Below the pieces are notes generated by a model. That model was given only the letters and a program-made list of their open reading frames with translations, searched no databases and was not told the origin of the DNA. A program made the position numbers and the translations under genes. Of a DNA stretch of 64,000 bases, positions 2,139-57,448 are shown piece after piece. This DNA is from Bacteroidales bacterium (GTDB lineage: Bacteria; Bacteroidota; Bacteroidia; Bacteroidales; UBA932), in contig JAEEIQ010000087.1 in the NCBI GenBank assembly GCA_016281435.1, forward strand, positions 6,466 through 70,465. Reading direction: 5' to 3'. Position 1 is the stretch's first letter, and each line of letters begins with the position of its first letter.

Positions 2139-5100
2139 ATGAAAAGATTCTTTGCGGCCGTTGTGGCCATACTCGTAGCGGCGTCACTCCTTGCGCAGAA
2201 CCGTGTGACCGTCAAGGGACGCATCACCGACGAAGCCGGCGAGCCCCTCCCGGGTGCCGCCGTCATAGAAAAGGGGACATCCAACGGGGTGCTCTCCGAC
2301 CTGGACGGGCGGTACAGCATCACCGTAGCGGCCGGCTCCTCGCTGGTCTTCAGCAACATGGGCTACAAGGAGGTCTCGGAAGAAGTGGGACGGCGCGGCA
2401 CCGTGGACGTAAGCCTCACCCCCGATACGACCTTTCTCGACGAAGCCGTTGTGGTCGGTTATGGCACGATGAAGCGCAGCGACCTGACCGGCTCGGTCTC
2501 GTCCGTGTCCTCGAAAGCCCTTGAAAACTTCCGCACCGGCGACGTGGCCACGGCACTCGGCGGTCAGCTCGCCGGCGTCAGTGTGACCTCGGCGGACGGA
2601 ACCCCGGGCGGCGGATACCAGATCCTGATACGCGGTGTCGGCACCGTCAACGGGGACGCTTCCCCTCTCTATATCGTGGACGGGTTCGAGGTCAGCAACA
2701 TCGACTACCTTGCCCAGCAGGACATCTTCTCGATCGAGGTCCTCAAGGATGCGTCGGCTTCGGCCATCTACGGGGCGCGCGCCGCCAACGGCGTCGTGCT
2801 CGTCACGACGAAGTCCGGCGCCGAAGGCAAGACCCAGGTGTCCTACAACGGCTCGATGAGCTACCGTGTCCTTTCCAAGCGGCTCGAAGTTCTATCAGCC
2901 TACGAGTACGTGGCCTTGCAGCACGAGCAGAATCCCGGCGACGACTACCGCTACTTCAAGGCGGGGGTCGACGACGACGGCGTTCCGTACAAGTACCAGA
3001 CCATGGATGACTACAAGGCCGTGGGCTACGGCATCAACTGGCAGGACGTATCCTTCAGGAATACATGGTCCCAGAATCACGACATCAGCATCAAGGGCGG
3101 CACGAAGACTTCCAGTTTCACGGCGTCCTTCTCCCATTTCGACGAGAACGGCATCTATGCCAACAGCGGCTACATCAAGGATGCGGGCAGGCTGAAGTTC
3201 CGCCGCCAGCTCACGAAGAACGTGACTGCGGATGCCAACGTGAATTTCACGAAACAGAACAAGTACGGCATGGGGACGAGCGGCTACACGCTCATCAACG
3301 TCCTGCAATACCGTCCCACCGGAGGCCTGAAACTCAGCGACGATCGCCTCCTCGGATCGGCCTTCGACCCCGACGAGGACAACTCCTACAACGACCGCTA
3401 CAATCCCCTGAAGGCCGCTTATACCACCGACGCATCGACCGTTACCTACACATGGATGGCCAACGGATCCCTGACCTGGAATATCATCGAGGGCCTGAGT
3501 TTCAAGGTCTCCGGCAGCTGGAACCAGGCCAACATGCGCCAGGACAGTTTCTACCATTCCGACAGCCAGCAGGCCCTCCGCTCCGGAGGCGCTTACGGCC
3601 AGTCGAAGATGCAGACCGGGCTGCGCTACACCGTCAACAACGTCCTCACCTACGAGAAGAAATTCGGCGGGAAGGGAAACGCGAACAAGATCATCGCCAC
3701 CCTCGGCCACGAGTATTCCTACAACAGCACCGAGTACCTTACAGGGCAGTCCAAGGAATTCCCTATCGACAATCTCGGAGTCCATCAGCTCAGCATGGGC
3801 AACATCGCGAGCCTTGTGGAGACTTCCTTCACCGACAAGAGCCGCCTGTCTTACTTCGCCCGCGGCTTCTACAGCTACAAGAGCCGCTACATGCTGACGG
3901 GCACCATACGCGCCGATGCTTCTTCAGTCTTCTCCGGCGAGAACCGCTGGGGTTTCTTCCCCTCTTTCTCAGCCGCGTGGACCATCTCCAACGAGCCCTG
4001 GATGAAGGGCTGGAGCAAGAAATGGCTCGATTCCCTGAAACTGCGCCTCGGCTGGGGCACCGTTGGCAACGACCGCATCAGCAGCTATCTGTCGAGCGAT
4101 ATCTACACATCCGTAAAGTACGGCCGCGGCAACGGCCAGGTCACGGCTCTGGTACCGCGCCAGCTGGCCAATCCCGACCTCCGCTGGGAAGGCTCGGAGA
4201 CCCTCAATGCCGGAATAGACTTCTCTGTCCTGAAAAACCGTTTCAGCGGGACTGTCGATCTCTTCCGCAAGGACTCCAGGGACCTCCTGCTCAAGCAGAA
4301 CCTGGCCCAGGTCACCGGATGGGACTCGCAGTGGCAGAACATAGGCCAGATACGCAACGAGGGCGTCGAGATCTCCCTCAACAGCATCAATGTCTCGAAG
4401 AAGGATTTCTCCTGGACCACGGCCTTCAACATCTCCTTCATCCGCAACACTCTGGTCTCGCTGCAGGATGGAACCAAGTACATGTACTCCCGCAGCGGCT
4501 TTGATTCGAACAACACCAACAACGACTATATCGCCATAGTCGGGCAGCCGCTCGGCAACATGTACGGCTTCGTCTTCGACGGCATCTACCAGTACTCCGA
4601 CTTCAACATAGCCCCGGACCTGAGCGTCACCCTGAAGCCGGGTGTCGTCGACATGTCATCCCATGCCGGCGTCACGATGACTCCGGGCCATGTCAAGTAC
4701 GTGGACGTCAAGAAGGACGGCAAGATCACGCCGGACGACCGTACCGTTATAGGAAACGGCTATCCCGACTGGTTCGGAGGCCTTACCAACACGGTCTATT
4801 TCAAGGGTGTCGACTTCTCCTTCATGCTGCAGTACAGCTACGGCAACGACATCTACAACGTCACGCGTTTCCGCACCACGAAGTCCAACAGCAAGAGCCG
4901 CAACATGCTCAAGGAGGTCGCCGACCGCTGGACGGTCTATCACGCATCCGACAACGTCCCTTCGCTGAAGGGCTACGTCACGCACGACATCTACTCCCGC
5001 TTCATCGAGGACGGGTCGTTCCTGCGCCTGAAGAACATGACCCTCGGCTACACCTTCCCCGACAAACTCGTCTCGAAGGCCCGCATCAGCAGGCTGAGGC

Positions 5101-49149: not shown

Positions 49150-49734
49150 TCATTCAGCGCTGAATCGTCGCAATGTGGCTCTTACCATGGAAGTCACGTA
49201 CTGACTGCTTGCGTAATCGTAAGCACGGCATTCATACTGGCAATCCAGAATGTCGTCTCGGAGACTAAGTATTTCCAATTCTCCGGCTCCGGTTGCCAAG
49301 TGGAAACCTCCTTGTGACATTGTCTCCTTTATACTTTGACCTTTTCGAAAAGAGAGGGCTCCTGTCTTGGAATCAATGGATATATATGCCGTCAGGGATA
49401 CACCGATTTGATCATTATGATCTCGTGAATTTCCATATTCTTCAGTCTCTATATACTGTATCGGTACAGTCAGGAAAAGATAGTTCTCTCTTATCCCGAT
49501 GGCAAAGATATCGATATGAGCTTTGAACAATCTGGCGCTCAGGTCAAATTCTTTGAACAAGTCCTTGTTAGCCGATCCGTCATCGTTCAAGTCCACTGGT
49601 TCTCCCATCCATTCGAGATTCAAATATTCATAGCGTCCTTTGTACTCCTGAATGGCCCTATCCAATATCATCTGCCTGTCCGGCGTGCAGGACAGGCAGA
49701 TGAGGGCGATGAAAAACAATAAGCGTATTTTCAT
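49150..49734 (-). CDS. Unrecognised lipoprotein, second gene of the AT-rich pair
   Basis: A 194-residue lipoprotein (MKIRLLFFIALICLSC, Cys 16). The mature part has a DLNDDGSANKDLF segment (~49-61) that looks like a calcium-binding dockerin/EF-like loop, then beta strands. I do not recognise the family. Base composition is clearly lower in GC than its neighbours. The ATG overlaps the upstream gene's stop as ATGA, so both are one transcript, probably driven by the ECF-type promoter at 51451-51483. Confidence 0.65.
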   Translation of the reverse strand: MKIRLLFFIALICLSCTPDRQMILDRAIQEYKGRYEYLNLEWMGEPVDLNDDGSANKDLFKEFDLSARLFKAHIDIFAIGIRENYLFLTVPIQYIETEEYGNSRDHNDQIGVSLTAYISIDSKTGALSFRKGQSIKETMSQGGFHLATGAGELEILSLRDDILDCQYECRAYDYASSQYVTSMVRATLRRFSAE

Positions 49735-51419
49735 TTCTTATTTTTTCTTTGCATCAAAGTAGATTTAATTATATCCTGATTTCTTCCGTCTATGGGGAGA
49801 AAAGAGATATTTATAGCGCCAAGTGAAAGGCAGTTTAAATTGTGTCCATACCCAACTCCATCTTTTAATGTTCTATTGAAGACTACACAGTTATCATATT
49901 TTAGACTCATTGAGCCCAAATCATCAGAGGCTTGGCTGTATGTATAAGAATAGGTCGAACCAGTGGTATGGCCGCCATTGATCCCTAACGAGCCTTTGAA
50001 CAGGTTATTATCGTTACCCATCTGGATATTACCTGAAAAACGGAAATCATGAGATTTGTTTTCTGTAATCGTAGTTGTTGAGGCATCATCTATTTCTTTG
50101 GCCGATATCCAAATGTCACATGAGCCAGAGGATAAATCCCAGGGCGTGCTTATTAGGATCATATTACCTTTATCAGATGGATAATACCATTTAGGTTCGA
50201 TGTAATCTTCTTTAATTGTGTATTCATGCCAATTTTTATTTCCTAAGAATGTCCAACCGAAAACCACATGTACTTTTGAAATATACATTATGTCTCCTGC
50301 ATCTATAGTCAGCGATGGTGAGCCCAAGCTGCTTGTCGTTCCATCTTTGTTCGCTTTCACGAAATCGAATTTAATCTCATATTTTCCCGTGCTCCATAAT
50401 TTTGATAGGAATTCGTCAAAAGCTAGTGTTTTGTCTCGTCCTGTTTTAATTGTGCCTTGAAGATCAGGATCTTCTGAAGAGTCGGCATAATTCCATAATT
50501 CTGAGTTGCTGACAAAAGAAAAGCGGTAGAGTAATTCCTTTTTGTGTTTACAGTAGATGCCATTGTTTATATTAGATTTCGTCATGCCATAATATATAAA
50601 GTCACGTTGTACTCCATCTCCCCATCCGGTTCCAAACTCATCGTACGCTTGTAACGTTTCAGGGCTGATGCTTCTAAGGTCCGTTTCTGAGATGAAATCT
50701 CCAACTCGTCTGACCCAATCTACTGAAGATGTATCCGGATTATCGTTCACATAATCTGTCCACCCTCTTGTTTTTTCTATTTTACTACCGTCAAATTCCG
50801 GAGCAATGAAATCATAGCTAGCTTCATTGGCTCGGGTAGCCGGAGTCTTGACTATCATCCTCTCATTGCTTTTGACAATCAATACAGGGAAATCAGGGAA
50901 AGCCCCCAAAGGTAATTCACCTTTTATTTCACCATTACTGAAAACCGGGTGTGAGGCGTTTTGATCAGCATAACCTACTCCTACTTCTTCAATGGAAGTA
51001 TCCCATTTCTTCACGCTGAAACAGCGAGGGTCGATCCATGAAAAATCAGGGACGAGTATAGTAAGTTTAGGGAGACTCCGTTCGATCAGTTCAAGATTGG
51101 AAGGTGTTTCAGAAAAGTTGAGCAGAAGTTCACGGAATGTCATCCCATCATGGACTACTTCATTTTTCACATATGGGTAAAACACGTCAAAATCCCGGTC
51201 AAACTCTTTAAGAGCCTCCTGCTTCAGAAAGACTCTGAGTTCCTTGTCTGAAGAAACAGCTTTTGAAAGGATTGCTGCGAAATTCCTCATCGCCGTTTGT
51301 TCGTCAATTGTTAACAGTTCTTCGTAGGACGAGATTGGAGCATCCGGATTGATTTGTTTGCTACATGAAACCATGAGCGCGGCCGTCAAAAGGGCCGTTA
51401 AAGTTAGTGCTTTTTTCAT
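49731..51419 (-). CDS. Large unrecognised lipoprotein, first gene of the AT-rich pair
   Basis: A 562-residue lipoprotein (MKKALTLTALLTAALMVSC, Cys 19). Near the N-terminus a helical block EQTAMRNFAAILSKAVSSDKE is followed by LKEFDRDFDVFYPYVKNEVV; the rest is beta-rich with Trp and Asp/Asn turns (GWTDYVNDNPDTSSVDWV, GSCDIWISAKEIDD). It does not match a family I know. The start at 51419 is set by the signal peptide; a longer frame would run through the promoter. GC is low compared with the flanks. The ECF-type promoter copy begins 32 bases upstream. Confidence 0.68.
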   Translation of the reverse strand: MKKALTLTALLTAALMVSCSKQINPDAPISSYEELLTIDEQTAMRNFAAILSKAVSSDKELRVFLKQEALKEFDRDFDVFYPYVKNEVVHDGMTFRELLLNFSETPSNLELIERSLPKLTILVPDFSWIDPRCFSVKKWDTSIEEVGVGYADQNASHPVFSNGEIKGELPLGAFPDFPVLIVKSNERMIVKTPATRANEASYDFIAPEFDGSKIEKTRGWTDYVNDNPDTSSVDWVRRVGDFISETDLRSISPETLQAYDEFGTGWGDGVQRDFIYYGMTKSNINNGIYCKHKKELLYRFSFVSNSELWNYADSSEDPDLQGTIKTGRDKTLAFDEFLSKLWSTGKYEIKFDFVKANKDGTTSSLGSPSLTIDAGDIMYISKVHVVFGWTFLGNKNWHEYTIKEDYIEPKWYYPSDKGNMILISTPWDLSSGSCDIWISAKEIDDASTTTITENKSHDFRFSGNIQMGNDNNLFKGSLGINGGHTTGSTYSYTYSQASDDLGSMSLKYDNCVVFNRTLKDGVGYGHNLNCLSLGAINISFLPIDGRNQDIIKSTLMQRKNKK

Positions 51420-51450: not shown

Positions 51451-51483
51451 ATGAGACAACGAACCATTGAAAAAGTACCACTC
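51451..51483 (-). promoter_or_regulatory. ECF-type promoter copy 1, for the lipoprotein pair
   Basis: On the minus strand a GGTACTT -35-like box and a GTC(T)-type -10 box are separated by 15 bases, as in ECF-sigma promoters (GGAACTT / GTCTAA type). It matches the element at 56226-56258 at 25 of 33 positions, including the 13-base GAGTGGTACTTTT and the CGTTGTC run. It lies 32 bases upstream of the lipoprotein ATG. Confidence 0.7.
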
Positions 51484-51592
51484 GAAAACAAGTATTTTTT
51501 TGTCGTGTTACATACCACGAGTAATGATGCCTCCGACAAGCGGCGACCGAATGCATATAAGGGTTGTGTTATAGTCCTGGTTTTCTGACTGG

Positions 51593-52105
51593 TCAGGCAA
51601 AGAACAGCAGGACGAAGCGGAACTGGGAGGCGTCAAGGCTGCCGCGCAGCGAGGCCATGGCGCGGGACAGATGGTTCTTTACGGTCTGCTCGGCGATCCC
51701 GAGGTCTTCGGCGATCTCTTTTATCGTCAGGCCGTCGCGTTTCGCCATCAGCAGGACCTTGCGACGGACAGGTGGCAGAGCCTCGATCCCGGTCCAGAGG
51801 GCGGCCTCTCCTGCGGAGCGGTCCCTCGCCTCTTCATCGCTTATCACCCCGTCAGGATCAAGGGGCTCAAGAGTGTTTCGGCCTGCTTTTTTCAGACGGT
51901 TGATGCAGTCATTCCTTACCGCTGTGTACATCCATGGGCGGGGCGCCATTATGGATGATCCTGACGAGACGGATTCCCAGAACCGGAGAAAACTATCCTG
52001 GACAGCATCTTCGGCGTCTGACAAGTTGCCGAGATAATGCAGTGCATATAGGCATAACTGTCTGTATAGGCTCCTGTAGAGCCTGTGCATTTCTTCCTGT
52101 CTCAT
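51593..52105 (-). CDS. ECF-family RNA polymerase sigma factor
   Basis: A 170-residue sigma-70-like factor with only regions 2 and 4. Region 2 is in YALHYLGNLSDAEDAVQDSFLRFWE (~18-42) with the RPWMYTAVRNDCINRLK segment (~56-72); region 4 is LPPVRRKVLLMAKRDGLTIKEIAEDLGIAEQTVKNHLSRAM (~110-150). It directs transcription of promoters such as the two copies nearby, by inference. It is the last gene of the FecR-TonB receptor-DUF4249 run and its start overlaps the DUF4249 stop by 4 bases (ATGA). The usual order puts the sigma gene first. Confidence 0.9.
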   Translation of the reverse strand: MRQEEMHRLYRSLYRQLCLYALHYLGNLSDAEDAVQDSFLRFWESVSSGSSIMAPRPWMYTAVRNDCINRLKKAGRNTLEPLDPDGVISDEEARDRSAGEAALWTGIEALPPVRRKVLLMAKRDGLTIKEIAEDLGIAEQTVKNHLSRAMASLRGSLDASQFRFVLLFFA

Positions 52106-53121
52106 AGCTGCATGTCCGGAAGGTCGATTATGTAGTCAAACGAACTCATTACAGTGACGAATCCGGCACCGCCTGAGACGTTCTGCTTGAAAATCAAGGG
52201 GGCATCTACGGAGAATTCGGTCAGGGTCGAGCTATAGTACTGGACGGCGTTGAGGTAGGAGTATGCGTCCTTATCCATGGTGTTCAGCCGTACGATTGCC
52301 CTCGCCCTGCAAATATATGATGAACCGCCCATGTATCCCCCTGACCGGTTGTAAAAGCGGTCTTCGCAAGCCAGGTTCAAGGTGTATGCCGATCCGCTGA
52401 AGCGGGAATCGCGGAAGATATTGAAGGCATTCTCAAAATAATCCGGCTCGTAAACGGTTGTTCTGTCATCCTCCCTGGGAATCCTTATCCCGTTGTTCAG
52501 CGACGGCTCCAATGTATTTATGACCGCAAGTTCCTTCCTTCCGTAGTAAGCGAGCGTGTCACCCGGCTCATGCCGTTCGTATTCTCCCTTCACGGCAAGG
52601 ACCAGTGCCGCTTCCGAGAAAATCTGGACCCGGTAAAAATTATCTTCTCCTGTCCGGTCTTCCATGGTCGCCAGAAACTGTCTGCATGTCTGCGGATATC
52701 TGTCTGTCTGCCGGAGCATGGTGACTAAAGCAGTATCCACACTGGAGATCACGGCGGGGAGCGGGGCCTGTACTTCCGCGGCGGCGAGGTTTCCGTCCGG
52801 CGTCTCCAGTTCGAGCCGCACCATGTCGCCGGGCCTGGCGCGGCACTTGAAACGTATCGACTGCGGTGCTTCGTGCCCTGTGAGATCGGATGTCTCTGAC
52901 TGCAGGATACCGTTGACATAGCAGCGGAGGCTGGCGTCCTCAATCATATAACAGTTGTCAAACGAGCTCCATGCAACGAAAGCCGTGTGCAGGCTGTCCC
53001 CTGTGCAGATGATTGAATTGAGGGTAAGTATCCTTTCAGAGGGGTCTCCGGGCAGATTCACGGTTCTTTCGCAGGCAAGGACCAGCGGCAGGAATATGAA
53101 ACAGGTGAGTATCTTTTTCAT
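52102..53121 (-). CDS. DUF4249-family lipoprotein
   Basis: A 339-residue lipoprotein (MKKILTCFIFLPLVLAC, Cys 17). The family (DUF4249) is found next to TonB receptors in Bacteroidetes and is thought to act as a SusD-like partner. The match rests on the CERTVNL start of the mature protein, an early beta-sandwich (LTLNSIICTGDSLHTAFVAWSS) and a long tyrosine-rich tail (AYSYLNAVQYYSSTLTEF), and on the gene context. It is 5 bases after the receptor stop and overlaps the sigma factor by 4. Confidence 0.72.
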   Translation of the reverse strand: MKKILTCFIFLPLVLACERTVNLPGDPSERILTLNSIICTGDSLHTAFVAWSSFDNCYMIEDASLRCYVNGILQSETSDLTGHEAPQSIRFKCRARPGDMVRLELETPDGNLAAAEVQAPLPAVISSVDTALVTMLRQTDRYPQTCRQFLATMEDRTGEDNFYRVQIFSEAALVLAVKGEYERHEPGDTLAYYGRKELAVINTLEPSLNNGIRIPREDDRTTVYEPDYFENAFNIFRDSRFSGSAYTLNLACEDRFYNRSGGYMGGSSYICRARAIVRLNTMDKDAYSYLNAVQYYSSTLTEFSVDAPLIFKQNVSGGAGFVTVMSSFDYIIDLPDMQL

Positions 53122-53126
53122 TTCGT

Positions 53127-55475
53127 TCAGAAGTTGAAAGTGTAGCTGAAATTCGGCATCACGGTGAAGAAAGTGATGATTTTCAGGGCCGGCCTGCGCT
53201 TTTCCGGATCCGGGTTGCCCGGATCGCTCCAAAACCACACAAGGTTGGGATTCATGGCGTCATATAGGTTGTAAACACCCAGCGTCCAGGTCCGTTCCCC
53301 TCTCTTTTTCTGTTTATGGAAGCTTACGCCTACGTCCAGGCGGTGTGTCGGCGGGAGGCGGTAATTGTTGATCGAGCCGATGTACTCCATGCTGGTCCAT
53401 GCGTTATAGCCGTATTCATTCCCGGAATCAGGGGAAATCAGGAAGGACTGATACTCCGGAACGGTGAACCATGCACCTGACATGATGATCCACAGGGCGC
53501 TGAGTTCCACCTTCTCGCTGAAACGGTGGCTGATGTTGACGTTGAAGTTGTGCCTGCGGTCGTATTTGAACGGGAACCAGCGCCCGTCGTTCACGCTCCC
53601 GTCAGGAAAGACCCGCTCGCTCCATGAAAGGGTGTATGAAAGGGATCCGGTTGTCCTGCCGGCGCTTTTCCGCGCATGCAGTTCCGCTCCCCATGAACGG
53701 CCTTTCCCGGATGCGACGTTGTACTGCCAGGAATCCGGCTCGGCGAGGGCCTGGGGGATATCCCTGTACTCTATGACTCCGTCCATCCGTTTCCACCATC
53801 CTTCCACTGAGAATTCCCATCCTTGAAGTCCGGTATGGAAAGCACCTGCAGAAAAAATGTCCGAAGTTTCGGGCCGTATGTCTTTTGTGATCGGTACCCA
53901 CAGGTCCGTAGGCATGCTTAGGGAGCCCGTTGTCAGGAGATGGACATACTGTGTCATCCGGGCGTAAGCCGCTTTTGCGGACCAGCTGCCGTCAAAGGCG
54001 TATCGTCCGGAAACCCGGGGCTGCATTGACAGGTAGCGGCGTCCCTGAACATCGAACAGGGTAGCCCTGAAGCCCGCATTGAGGGTAAAATGTCCTCCCG
54101 CAAGGATGTCATCGTCCGCATACAGGGAGATTTCCCTTCCTATGACCCTGTCCGGGGTGGATGAGGTTATCTGAGGATTGTAGCGGTGCAGCACGGCGTC
54201 AGCGCCGAAGGTCAGAAGATGATTCTCCACCGGTGTCCAGTCGAAATCGATCCTTGCTCCTGCATCGAGTATTCCGGTACCCTGTCGGAAAGGTGTCGAA
54301 TAGGATTCCTCGGTTTCGCCTCTCTTGAGGTATCCCTGCGAAAGGTTGTCCAGGGCCATGTCGTAAGAACTGCCGTAGAGGCAGGCCTCCCACCGGAGGG
54401 TCTCCGTGGCGATATGGTTCCACCTGACTGCGGCCACGGTGTTCCCGTAGCGTATGTCCATCCGCAGCCTGTCAGTGCTTTCGTACGTTTCTCCGTCGTA
54501 TGTCCCTGTCCGGGTGGTAGTCTTGTCATAATTGAAGAGATCCCGTCCATGGTACAGGCTTGCGGTGAGGCGGTCATCCGTGCCAAAGCGGTGCGTAATC
54601 TTTCCTCCGAGGTCGTAGAAGCTGTAGTTCAAGGGACTTCCGAGCCACCTTATGGGCTTGTCCAGCAGAAGTGTATGCATGCCCCTGGCGCTCAGGGAGA
54701 AACTCGTGCCTCCGTCGAAGAGCGGACCTTCGAGATAGAGCTTTTCTGCCAGCAGTCCCGCGCTTATGCTTCCGCGCAGGCGGTCTCCGTTCCCTTCCGA
54801 GGTCCTCACGTCGATTATGCTTGAGACCCGTCCCCCGTATCTTGCCGGGAAAGCTCCCTTGTACATTGTCACTTTCCTTACCGCCTCCGGAGTGAAGGCT
54901 GAAAACAGGCCCAGGGCGTGGTTTACATTGTACATCGGCACTCCGTCAAGCAGGAAAAGATTCTCGTCGGCCCCGCCGCCGCGGACAAATATGCCGGTGA
55001 ATCCTTCCATCCCGGGGTTGACTCCGGGCATCAGCTGCAGGGTCTTCAGGACATCAGATTCACCGAAAAGGACCGGAGTGTTACGGATCATTGTTTGTGG
55101 CACTTCCAGCGATCCTGCAAAGGTCGATCCCGCCCCGGCGTCGCGCCTCGAGACAATCTTCGACGGATTCAGCAGATTAGGGATCTTTCGTGCCAGGAGG
55201 GCATCCTGATCTTCATTCGTAGAATCATGCTTTCGGAGAATTATATATTTCCCTATGCGTGTCCATCCGAGTCCGCTTCCTTCGAGGACGGCATCCAGCT
55301 GCCCTTCGAGCGACACGGCCGGTACGGCAGGAGACGGCGAAGCAAGAGTTTGGGTTATTGCTCCGTCATAAACCAGCCTCAGTCCATGCTCCCGGCTGAT
55401 CTTTCCGAGAGACTGGAGAAGGTCCGGCTGCTGGACTGCCAGGGCCAGAAACAAAATAATAGAAGGCAGTCTCAT
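53127..55475 (-). CDS. TonB-dependent receptor with STN signalling domain
   Basis: A 782-residue outer-membrane receptor. After a signal peptide (~1-15) a secretin/TonB N-terminal (STN) domain (~17-82: LLQSLGKISREHGLRLVYDG... WTRIGKYIILRKH) is followed by a plug (~125-235: TLQLMPGVNPGMEGFTGIFVRGGG, FLLDGVPMYNV) and a barrel ending NFSYTFNF. The STN domain in FecA-type receptors contacts the anti-sigma factor when ligand is bound. It lacks the CarboxypepD_reg domain that usually precedes the plug in this phylum. It overlaps the FecR gene by ATGA and is followed by DUF4249. The ligand is unknown. Confidence 0.9.
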   Translation of the reverse strand: MRLPSIILFLALAVQQPDLLQSLGKISREHGLRLVYDGAITQTLASPSPAVPAVSLEGQLDAVLEGSGLGWTRIGKYIILRKHDSTNEDQDALLARKIPNLLNPSKIVSRRDAGAGSTFAGSLEVPQTMIRNTPVLFGESDVLKTLQLMPGVNPGMEGFTGIFVRGGGADENLFLLDGVPMYNVNHALGLFSAFTPEAVRKVTMYKGAFPARYGGRVSSIIDVRTSEGNGDRLRGSISAGLLAEKLYLEGPLFDGGTSFSLSARGMHTLLLDKPIRWLGSPLNYSFYDLGGKITHRFGTDDRLTASLYHGRDLFNYDKTTTRTGTYDGETYESTDRLRMDIRYGNTVAAVRWNHIATETLRWEACLYGSSYDMALDNLSQGYLKRGETEESYSTPFRQGTGILDAGARIDFDWTPVENHLLTFGADAVLHRYNPQITSSTPDRVIGREISLYADDDILAGGHFTLNAGFRATLFDVQGRRYLSMQPRVSGRYAFDGSWSAKAAYARMTQYVHLLTTGSLSMPTDLWVPITKDIRPETSDIFSAGAFHTGLQGWEFSVEGWWKRMDGVIEYRDIPQALAEPDSWQYNVASGKGRSWGAELHARKSAGRTTGSLSYTLSWSERVFPDGSVNDGRWFPFKYDRRHNFNVNISHRFSEKVELSALWIIMSGAWFTVPEYQSFLISPDSGNEYGYNAWTSMEYIGSINNYRLPPTHRLDVGVSFHKQKKRGERTWTLGVYNLYDAMNPNLVWFWSDPGNPDPEKRRPALKIITFFTVMPNFSYTFNF

Positions 55476-56212
55476 CGCTCGATCTTTATGTCAAGGGCGC
55501 TCTCTATCAGGGACAGGATTTCGTCGGGGGAGGTCGCTTCGAATTCACCGGTCAGCCGCCTGCCGCTCTCCGGCGCTTTAAGTGAAATACCGAACCAGGC
55601 TCCTATCTCCGAGAGGACATCTTCCAGCGGGGCGTCTTCAAAACGGAACACTTTGGCCTCACGGCTGAGTTCGGCATGCATGCCCCCGGTGAGTTCCATC
55701 GCATCCGGTGCATCCGCGGTGCGCCCGAGCAGGACCCTGCCGGAAAATACATCTATGCTGGCAAGGGAGTCCGTGACATTAATGAAAAAACTCGTCCCGA
55801 GCACCCGCACGAGGCCATACCCGAATTCTACATCGAAAGGGATGCCGTTTGCGCCGGCTATCTGGCAGAACGCCTTTCCTGTCAGAGCGATCTTCCTCTG
55901 CCTGCGGAACCCCCTGCTCTTGAACGAAAGGCTCGCTTCGGGAGAGAGATCTATCTTCGAGCCGTCGGGAAGGACCACGGTCCTGGCGCTGTCTGCAAGG
56001 ATGTATTCCGTCCTGTCTCGGTTCAAGTAAAAGAATGTCCCGACGGTGATAACCAGCGCCGCAATGGCCGCGGCAGCAATATAAAGGCCGTTATTTCTGC
56101 GTGTTTCAGCGAGTCCCGTCCTTTCAATGAACCTGCGCCAAGCTCTTTCCGGATCGAGGGACCCGGATGCGAAATGCCGCGCAACGAATTTTAGCTTCTG
56201 TTCCATTGTCAT
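55472..56212 (-). CDS. FecR-family anti-sigma factor
   Basis: A 246-residue inner-membrane protein: a short cytoplasmic N-terminus (~1-42), one helix (YIAAAAIAALVITVGTFFYL ~44-63) and a periplasmic FecR domain (~75-175: RTVVLPDGSKIDLSPEASLSF, VRVLGTSFFINV) plus a C-terminal DUF4974-like domain (FEDAPLEDVLSEIGAWFGISL). It should hold or modulate the ECF sigma factor until the receptor signals. It heads the operon and the ECF-type promoter copy lies directly upstream. An ATG two codons later is an alternative start. Confidence 0.92.
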   Translation of the reverse strand: MTMEQKLKFVARHFASGSLDPERAWRRFIERTGLAETRRNNGLYIAAAAIAALVITVGTFFYLNRDRTEYILADSARTVVLPDGSKIDLSPEASLSFKSRGFRRQRKIALTGKAFCQIAGANGIPFDVEFGYGLVRVLGTSFFINVTDSLASIDVFSGRVLLGRTADAPDAMELTGGMHAELSREAKVFRFEDAPLEDVLSEIGAWFGISLKAPESGRRLTGEFEATSPDEILSLIESALDIKIER

Positions 56213-56225
56213 TCAGTTTACATCA

Positions 56226-56258
56226 ATATGACAACGGAATACCGGAAAAGTACCACTC
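56226..56258 (-). promoter_or_regulatory. ECF-type promoter copy 2, for the FecR-receptor-sigma operon
   Basis: Minus strand GGTACTT and GTC boxes spaced 15 bases apart, near-identical to the element at 51451-51483. It lies 14 bases before the FecR ATG and overlaps the last bases of rsmG. Presence before the sigma factor's own operon implies autoregulation. Confidence 0.7.
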
Positions 56259-56862
56259 ACTTTTCGACTTTCACGACAAATTTTCCGTCAAACCAGGGGG
56301 ACTCGATTTTGTCCGAGATCTTCCAGGTGCTGACGGGTAGTTTGTATCGTCCCTGGAAGCGGCTGATTTCTTCATTGATGTCCCCGCCTTTCAGGCAGAG
56401 CAGTCCCGAGCGGTATTTGCCCTTGACCCAGGAGTAAAGGTCCGACAGATCGGCGACGGCCCTTGAAACCACCCAGTCGAAGGTGTCCGGAAGGCTTTCC
56501 GCCCGCGCATTGACGCAGCGGACATTGCCCAGGCCCAGTTCTTCGGCCACTCCGGAAGCGACCTTGATCTTTTTCCCTATCGAATCGCAGAGCACGAATT
56601 CCGTCTTCGGGAACACGCTCGCAAGCGGAATCCCGGGAAAGCCCCCGCCCGTACCGAGGTCGAGCACCTTCACCCCTCCTTCCTGCCAGCGGGCAAACTC
56701 GCCGGGCAAGCACTCTTCAAGGTACATCGCAATGGCCAGGGAGTGCAGGATGTGATGCTCCCAGAGGTTGTCGATGTCCTTGCGCGAGACGACGTTGATC
56801 TTCGCGTTCCATTCCTTATATAGTTCGCACATGCGTGCGAAGTAGTGCTCAGTTATCTGCAT
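56257..56862 (-). CDS. rsmG: 16S rRNA (guanine527-N7)-methyltransferase
   Basis: A 201-residue SAM-dependent methyltransferase (GidB family) that makes m7G527 in 16S rRNA. The SAM motif is KVLDLGTGGGFPGIPLAS (~64-81) and the conserved SRAVADL (~132) and LCLKGGD (~155) segments are present. Its 5' end overlaps the sigma factor gene by 14 bases and its 3' end overlaps the ECF-type promoter. Confidence 0.94.
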   Translation of the reverse strand: MQITEHYFARMCELYKEWNAKINVVSRKDIDNLWEHHILHSLAIAMYLEECLPGEFARWQEGGVKVLDLGTGGGFPGIPLASVFPKTEFVLCDSIGKKIKVASGVAEELGLGNVRCVNARAESLPDTFDWVVSRAVADLSDLYSWVKGKYRSGLLCLKGGDINEEISRFQGRYKLPVSTWKISDKIESPWFDGKFVVKVEK

Positions 56863-57448
56863 TTTCCTTCATTTCATCTATCAGGGCCTTGGCGCGGCGG
56901 ATGCGGGTGCGGACCGTGTTGAGTTCCATGCCGAGCTCCTCGGCTATTTCCTTGTATTGCAGGTTGTCCAGCAGGCGCTTGCGGGCGACCTCCCGGTAGA
57001 GTTCGGGGAGGGCGTCTATGTACTTCTGGCTCTGCTCCTCGTCCTCGGTCCGGATGATGAAGTCCAGGGGCGTGTCGATCTTGTCCGGAAGCGCTTCGGC
57101 CACAGCCGAAGGGTGCGCGTCGTCGTCCAGATAGACAAGCTGGTATTTCTTCTGGTCGCGGTTTATCTGCTCCACGGTGTCCAGGGCCGTGTTGCGGGCG
57201 ATCCTTTTCAGCCAGGTGGAGAACTGGCTGATCGACGGGTCGTACGAACTTATCTGCCGGAAGGCCTTCTCGAAACTCCGGGAGCAGATATCGTCCACGT
57301 AGAAATCGTCCAGGGACTTGATGATGCCCCTGATGTACGTGCGCAGGCCTTCGATGTGGGTGTCCCAGAGCGACGTGAACGCCGCGCCGTCGCCTATCAT
57401 CGCGAGGCGTACCAGTTCGTCAATGGGCTTCGAGCCAGGTTTTTCCAT
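56849..57448 (-). CDS. Second sigma-70-family (ECF-type) RNA polymerase sigma factor
   Basis: A 199-residue factor with regions 2 (~26-95: FTSLWDTHIEGLRTYIRGII... FSTWLKRIARNTALDTVEQ) and 4 (~145-195: ALPELYREVARKRLLDNLQYKEIAEELGMELNTVRTRIRRAK). It has no adjacent anti-sigma gene. It overlaps polA by 29 bases and rsmG by 14, so it is in a housekeeping operon and is likely a general-stress or envelope sigma factor. It is distinct from the sigma factor at 51593. Confidence 0.88.
   Translation of the reverse strand: MEKPGSKPIDELVRLAMIGDGAAFTSLWDTHIEGLRTYIRGIIKSLDDFYVDDICSRSFEKAFRQISSYDPSISQFSTWLKRIARNTALDTVEQINRDQKKYQLVYLDDDAHPSAVAEALPDKIDTPLDFIIRTEDEEQSQKYIDALPELYREVARKRLLDNLQYKEIAEELGMELNTVRTRIRRAKALIDEMKENADN

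Follow-up and report, generated by a model that had tools for sequence, protein, structure and literature searches.

The window, by which the whole 64,000-nucleotide stretch of Bacteroidales DNA analysed here is meant, probably encodes a surface-signalling unit resembling FecI/FecR/FecA, whose regulon consists of two operons, the second of which supplies accessory lipoproteins. The evidence for this reading is drawn from the sequence, namely from the class of promoter found before both operons, the conservation of that class at FecR/receptor operons, the order of the genes, and the linkage of the two lipoproteins, named lipoL and lipoS, to DUF4249-type receptors. The analysis provides a full -35/-10 motif for a Bacteroidales FecI-type sigma class and identifies two lipoprotein families, both undescribed, that are repeatedly found next to DUF4249 receptors.

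Organization of the locus

On the minus strand the genes follow one another in the order FecR, TonB receptor, DUF4249 protein, ECF sigma factor, and then lipoL and lipoS (Table 1). The first four genes lie close together, and two of their three junctions are 4-base overlaps, one of which joins the DUF4249 gene to the sigma gene. The locus features a sigma factor with regions 2 and 4 and a co-encoded FecR, as in FecI/FecR/FecA-type systems. The sigma factor scores above the cut-off of the NCBIfam superfamily model sigma70-ECF and below that of Sig70_bacteroi1. The receptor has full-length relatives in FecR loci. Its STN domain is a weak Pfam match only (E 0.0056, 16.9 bits, cut-off 28.4), and among four receptors from the FecR loci of relatives, two match weakly (E 0.0016 and 0.00021) and two have no match at E 0.05. 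A search for SusD at E 0.1 gave no match in the DUF4249 protein, lipoL or lipoS; the neighbour of the receptor is the DUF4249 protein, in contrast to the SusD-family lipoprotein of a SusC/SusD uptake system. A second sigma-70-like gene (56849-57448) adjoins rsmG upstream of the FecR operon and has no FecR neighbour.

Table 1. Features of the signalling locus and the adjoining lipoprotein operon, with positions in the window.
Feature	Position	Strand	Remarks
P1, ECF-type promoter	56226..56258	-	GGTACTTTT-N12-TGTC; before FecR operon, overlaps last bases of rsmG
FecR-type sigma regulator	55472..56212	-	Pfam FecR and FecR_C above cut-off
TonB-dependent receptor, N-terminal STN-like signalling domain	53127..55475	-	Plug above cut-off, STN below cut-off
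DUF4249 lipoprotein, receptor partner	52102..53121	-	PF14054, E 3.8e-25
ECF sigma factor, 170 aa, last gene of operon	51593..52105	-	Sigma70_r2 and Sigma70_r4_2 above cut-off
P2, ECF-type promoter	51451..51483	-	before lipoL-lipoS; matrix score 20.4
lipoL, 562-aa lipoprotein, undescribed family	49731..51419	-	154 homologs (protein search)
lipoS, 194-aa lipoprotein, second undescribed family	49150..49734	-	diverged relatives by profile, at other loci

The two promoter elements

P1 and P2 are identical at 25 of 33 bases, a recount that returns the figure given in the preliminary description, and no other 33-mer of the window, on either strand, matches the second element at more than 22 bases. 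The window contains three copies of the simple pattern GGTACTT-N15-GTC, compared with 0.01 on average in shuffled sequences. The third copy (2973-2997, minus strand) lies inside long ORFs and is absent from the eight window sites that reach a matrix score of at least 6. The matrix was built from the FecR/receptor upstream sites of 16 relatives with the window left out, and its consensus is RGTACTTTT-N12-CGTC. When the 64 kb are ranked with this matrix, P1 comes first (22.8) and P2 second (20.4), and the next site scores 11.8. The best sites of 100 Markov windows have a mean score of 8.5, and one of them has a site (21.4) that outscores P2. The score of P2 alone leaves doubt because of this one simulated window, and it is the position of P2 and its pairing with P1 that make the case. 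Both elements score below every training site (27.0-43.5), partly because TGTC replaces CGTC; the TGTC variant is also found at FecR in loci L176 and L178. P1 and P2 additionally have in common two features that are rare in the class, an AGTGG before the -35 box, seen also in L172, and a GTTGTC at -10, seen also in L176. The two elements are assigned to a conserved ECF-type promoter class of FecR/receptor operons.

The promoter class in related Bacteroidales

Relatives among the Bacteroidales have closely similar sequences ahead of their FecR or receptor genes. Of 32 relative loci that contain both ECF and FecR, 30 have a site scoring at least 16 between these two genes (between ECF and receptor in L184). 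The loci were selected among the top hits for receptor and FecR and not at random; three further loci cut by contig ends (L084, L175 and L181) stand outside the 32. When the training loci are removed together with L018 and L068, which are near-copies, the site is present in 18 of 20 loci, some of which, L187 for example, still resemble a training site. The two misses are L174, which carries the motif with an 11-base spacer (one base shorter), and L070, which has a degenerate form. Control loci contained 5 sites in 1,225,246 strand-bases.

A strict form of the motif, RGTACTWTT-N12-CGTCWTA, was searched in 40 chosen relative genomes with the reversed pattern as a control. It gave 27 sites in 20 of the 40 genomes, 7 of which are training sites, and the reversed pattern gave none. 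These 27 sites are divided among ECF/FecR/receptor loci (17), STN-like receptors with no sigma gene in the flank examined (4), and other genes that look exported as judged by reading (6). The preliminary description held that its reading would fail if the element were common at unrelated genes; such commonness was not seen in these 40 relatives, where 21 of the 27 sites stand ahead of FecR or STN-like receptors and the remaining six ahead of the exported-looking genes. Since strict sites occur at such genes too, the window is probably not alone in having a regulon that combines a receptor operon with separate genes of the envelope. Unlinked genes of this kind (L207 1500-3028, L223, L224, L227, L228 and L229) include a lipoprotein of 128 aa with a CotH gene behind it, as well as CarboxypepD-type proteins and others.

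Position of the sigma gene and proposed autoregulation

In each of the 32 relative loci that contain the two genes, an ECF gene is located 5' of FecR on the same strand. The promoter comes after that ECF gene in 30 of them, so that this promoter does not drive that sigma factor. The window is unlike these 32 loci: the operon behind its promoter ends with the sigma gene of this class, an arrangement from which positive feedback is predicted. In L067 and L082 a second, more distant ECF-like gene is found downstream. The gene order, with the sigma factor last behind the element, thus supports autoregulation of the window sigma factor, as the preliminary description had proposed. Its further proposal that one sigma factor reads both copies is supported at the level of the sigma class: the element is the conserved promoter of that class, and the reading of P1 and P2 by one sigma class is well supported by these comparisons. 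The particular reader would probably be the sigma factor encoded at 51593 itself rather than a paralogue elsewhere in the genome.

The lipoproteins lipoL and lipoS

Neither lipoL nor lipoS matches a family in Pfam, NCBIfam, PADLOC or PHROGs, in agreement with the earlier statement that the two lipoproteins were unrecognised. The AF2 model of lipoL has a pLDDT of 87.9 and a pTM of 0.63, and no strong structural match was found for it; the lipoS model is of low confidence. Scanning all 48 aligned lipoL members turned up nothing beyond stray weak matches, each confined to one or two of them. A search with lipoS alone recovers only two near homologs and a profile recovers a wider, diverged family, 13 members of which were scanned with three stray weak matches, each in one member. 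The G+C content is 40.0% for lipoL, 44.4% for lipoS and 39.3% for the gap before lipoL, compared with 58.2% for the window. The distribution of lipoL is patchy, and with weak hits included it is found in 14 of 393 genomes of the order, 15 of 388 of the family and 11 of 200 of the genus. Base composition and distribution together suggest a horizontal origin of the lipoprotein cassette.

The neighbours of lipoL were counted in 26 loci outside the window, which were fetched wide; weaker hits and hits at contig ends (G269, G284, G175, G109, G304, G369, G233, G768, G511, G577:C56 and G693:C8) were left out. By profile mapping, lipoS lies within 600 bp of lipoL on the same strand in 16 of these 26 loci, 8 of the 16 lipoS genes being rows of the lipoS profile itself. 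A receptor-DUF4249 pair is found downstream of lipoL in 7 of the 26 (L125, L130, L136, L139, L141, L200 and L202). The receptors of six of the seven, all but that of L139, have the Plug domain and show no STN at E 0.05, a weak form of evidence given that receptors from the ECF-FecR loci L173 and L176 show none either. Independently of this, FecR and the receptor are separated by a gene of the lipoS family in L067, L068, L070, L174, L175, L176 and L178, and such a gene follows DUF4249 in L078 and L185; five of these nine loci (L174, L175, L176, L178 and L185) are outside the lipoS profile. The lipoS family thus occurs with receptor operons of two kinds, which come together in the window. Among the loci examined, the window is the only one in which lipoL is found beside both ECF and FecR; the fetched stretches of the lipoL loci L124, L128 and L141 contain ECF-like genes without FecR. 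No convincing promoter site was found ahead of lipoL in the 26 other lipoL loci. In L123 a site scoring 19.0 lies upstream of lipoL in an AT-rich stretch and has no GTC.

The preliminary description regarded the two lipoproteins as outputs of the receptor. The element before lipoL-lipoS agrees with this, and the term probably understates their role: because both families recur beside DUF4249-type receptors in other genomes, they are more likely accessory components than mere outputs.

Proposed mechanism and alternative explanations

In the proposed mechanism, a ligand would bind the STN-like TonB receptor with its partner, the DUF4249 lipoprotein, and the receptor signal would pass through FecR, which would free or activate the ECF sigma factor. 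The sigma factor would transcribe the FecR-receptor-DUF4249-sigma operon from P1, giving positive feedback, and lipoL-lipoS from P2. The lipoL-lipoS pair would most likely be an accessory part of the uptake or sensing complex of the receptor, and it may have arrived as an AT-rich cassette that came under the control of the receptor's own sigma factor. The ligand, the activation, the binding of the sigma factor and the formation of the complex are predicted steps of this model. A more far-reaching version is put forward tentatively, with the balance leaning against it: lipoL and lipoS would be accessory subunits of DUF4249-type TonB transporters in a four-protein outer-membrane machine (receptor, DUF4249, lipoL and lipoS), and the signalling version in this lineage would itself produce these subunits when needed, by way of a rewired sigma circuit that amplifies itself.

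The main rival to the reading of P2 by the sigma factor at 51593 is that a different sigma factor reads it, since systems within one genome share the motif. The promoter class would then be common to several ECF-FecR systems of the genome, and another sigma factor, or several with cross-talk, would act on P2. Similar motifs are indeed present at different systems of one genome in G824 (L177 and L178) and G698 (L072 and L176), the motif stands at STN-like receptors in G787 and G833 with no sigma gene in the flank examined, and the second sigma-70-like gene of the window could be the reader. However, P1 and P2 share seldom-seen features and adjoin the 51593 sigma gene, and the second gene is just 27% identical (rounded down) to the 51593 sigma factor compared with 39-50% for most sigma factors from the FecR loci of relatives, which makes this explanation unlikely.

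It is also rather unlikely that lipoL-lipoS is an unrelated AT-rich cassette that landed beside the operon, borrowed or duplicated a promoter, and does no work with the receptor. The AT-richness, the patchy distribution of lipoL and the 19 of 26 lipoL loci that have no adjoining receptor-DUF4249 pair would fit such an event, but the pair stands in tandem with lipoL in the other seven, lipoS-family genes lie within FecR-receptor operons in nine loci, and there is no match to a defence or phage family, a viral-contig scan confirming no relative. That P1 and P2 are chance similarities with no regulatory meaning is very improbable; the one Markov window with a site scoring 21.4 speaks for it, whereas the two sites are both upstream of operons and next to a matching sigma gene, and the motif is kept at the same place in nearly all of the relative loci. 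The preferred reading is still that of a two-operon regulon under the sigma factor of the unit.

Comparison with known systems

According to the excerpts of PMC9249621, E. coli FecI acts on one promoter only, and there is no autoregulation of fecIR. The locus of the window is similar to E. coli FecI-FecR-FecA in its ECF sigma factor, FecR-type regulator, TonB receptor, here with a putative signalling domain, and predicted sigma-dependent promoter before the receptor genes. It differs from the system described in those excerpts in that the sigma gene lies behind its own promoter, a second operon carries the element, and the receptor is accompanied by a DUF4249 protein and lipoproteins. BT2172-BT2173 of Bacteroides thetaiotaomicron is a TonB transporter-DUF4249 pair whose operon is reported to be conserved across dozens of genera, and as in the window its TonB receptor directly adjoins the DUF4249 protein; the excerpted text makes no mention of a sigma/FecR pair or of lipoL-lipoS (PMC11003636). 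A literature search for DUF4249 gave this single paper.

A CGT-type -10 box for ECF sigma factors of this phylum has already been published from a flavobacterium: the excerpts of PMC9723704 describe SM6, an ECF-type promoter motif of Flavobacterium psychrophilum whose genes include components of type IX secretion. They name no FecR-receptor operon for SM6, and the likeness to the present motif covers the -10 side. ECF sigma and anti-sigma factors are tied to outer-membrane uptake loci in B. thetaiotaomicron, where SigW-1 acts on a distant locus and a TGTT box near -10 was noted in a motif that was not significant (PMC12596196 and PMC3878776, in excerpt). As described in those excerpts, the sigma group differs from that of the window and no FecR/STN/DUF4249 layout is given. 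Promoter prediction for ECF sigma factors in the phylum is called challenging for lack of start-site data (excerpt of PMC3878776). The preliminary description knew of no described system with this layout; likewise, none was seen in the titles and abstract beginnings among the matches listed from the literature on ECF, FecR, TonB and lipoproteins in Bacteroides or Bacteroidetes.

Additional observations in related genomes

Among 35 relatives tested with full-length PolA, the closest are G717, G694, G791 and G756 (66-67% identity); G717 belongs to the genus of G694 and to the order of a Bacteroidales record. Genome G783 carries the motif both at an ECF-FecR-receptor-DUF4249 operon (L071 10059) and at a separate receptor-DUF4249 pair (L119 2373), which has no sigma gene within the fetched stretch. 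In L067, L068, L069, L071 and L119 the GTC box is only 10-11 bases ahead of the next ATG, and the transcripts of these loci may be nearly leaderless. In L124 (9790-12937 and 7012-9811), lipoL is split around a transposase-like ORF and is followed by three tandem copies of the lipoS family.
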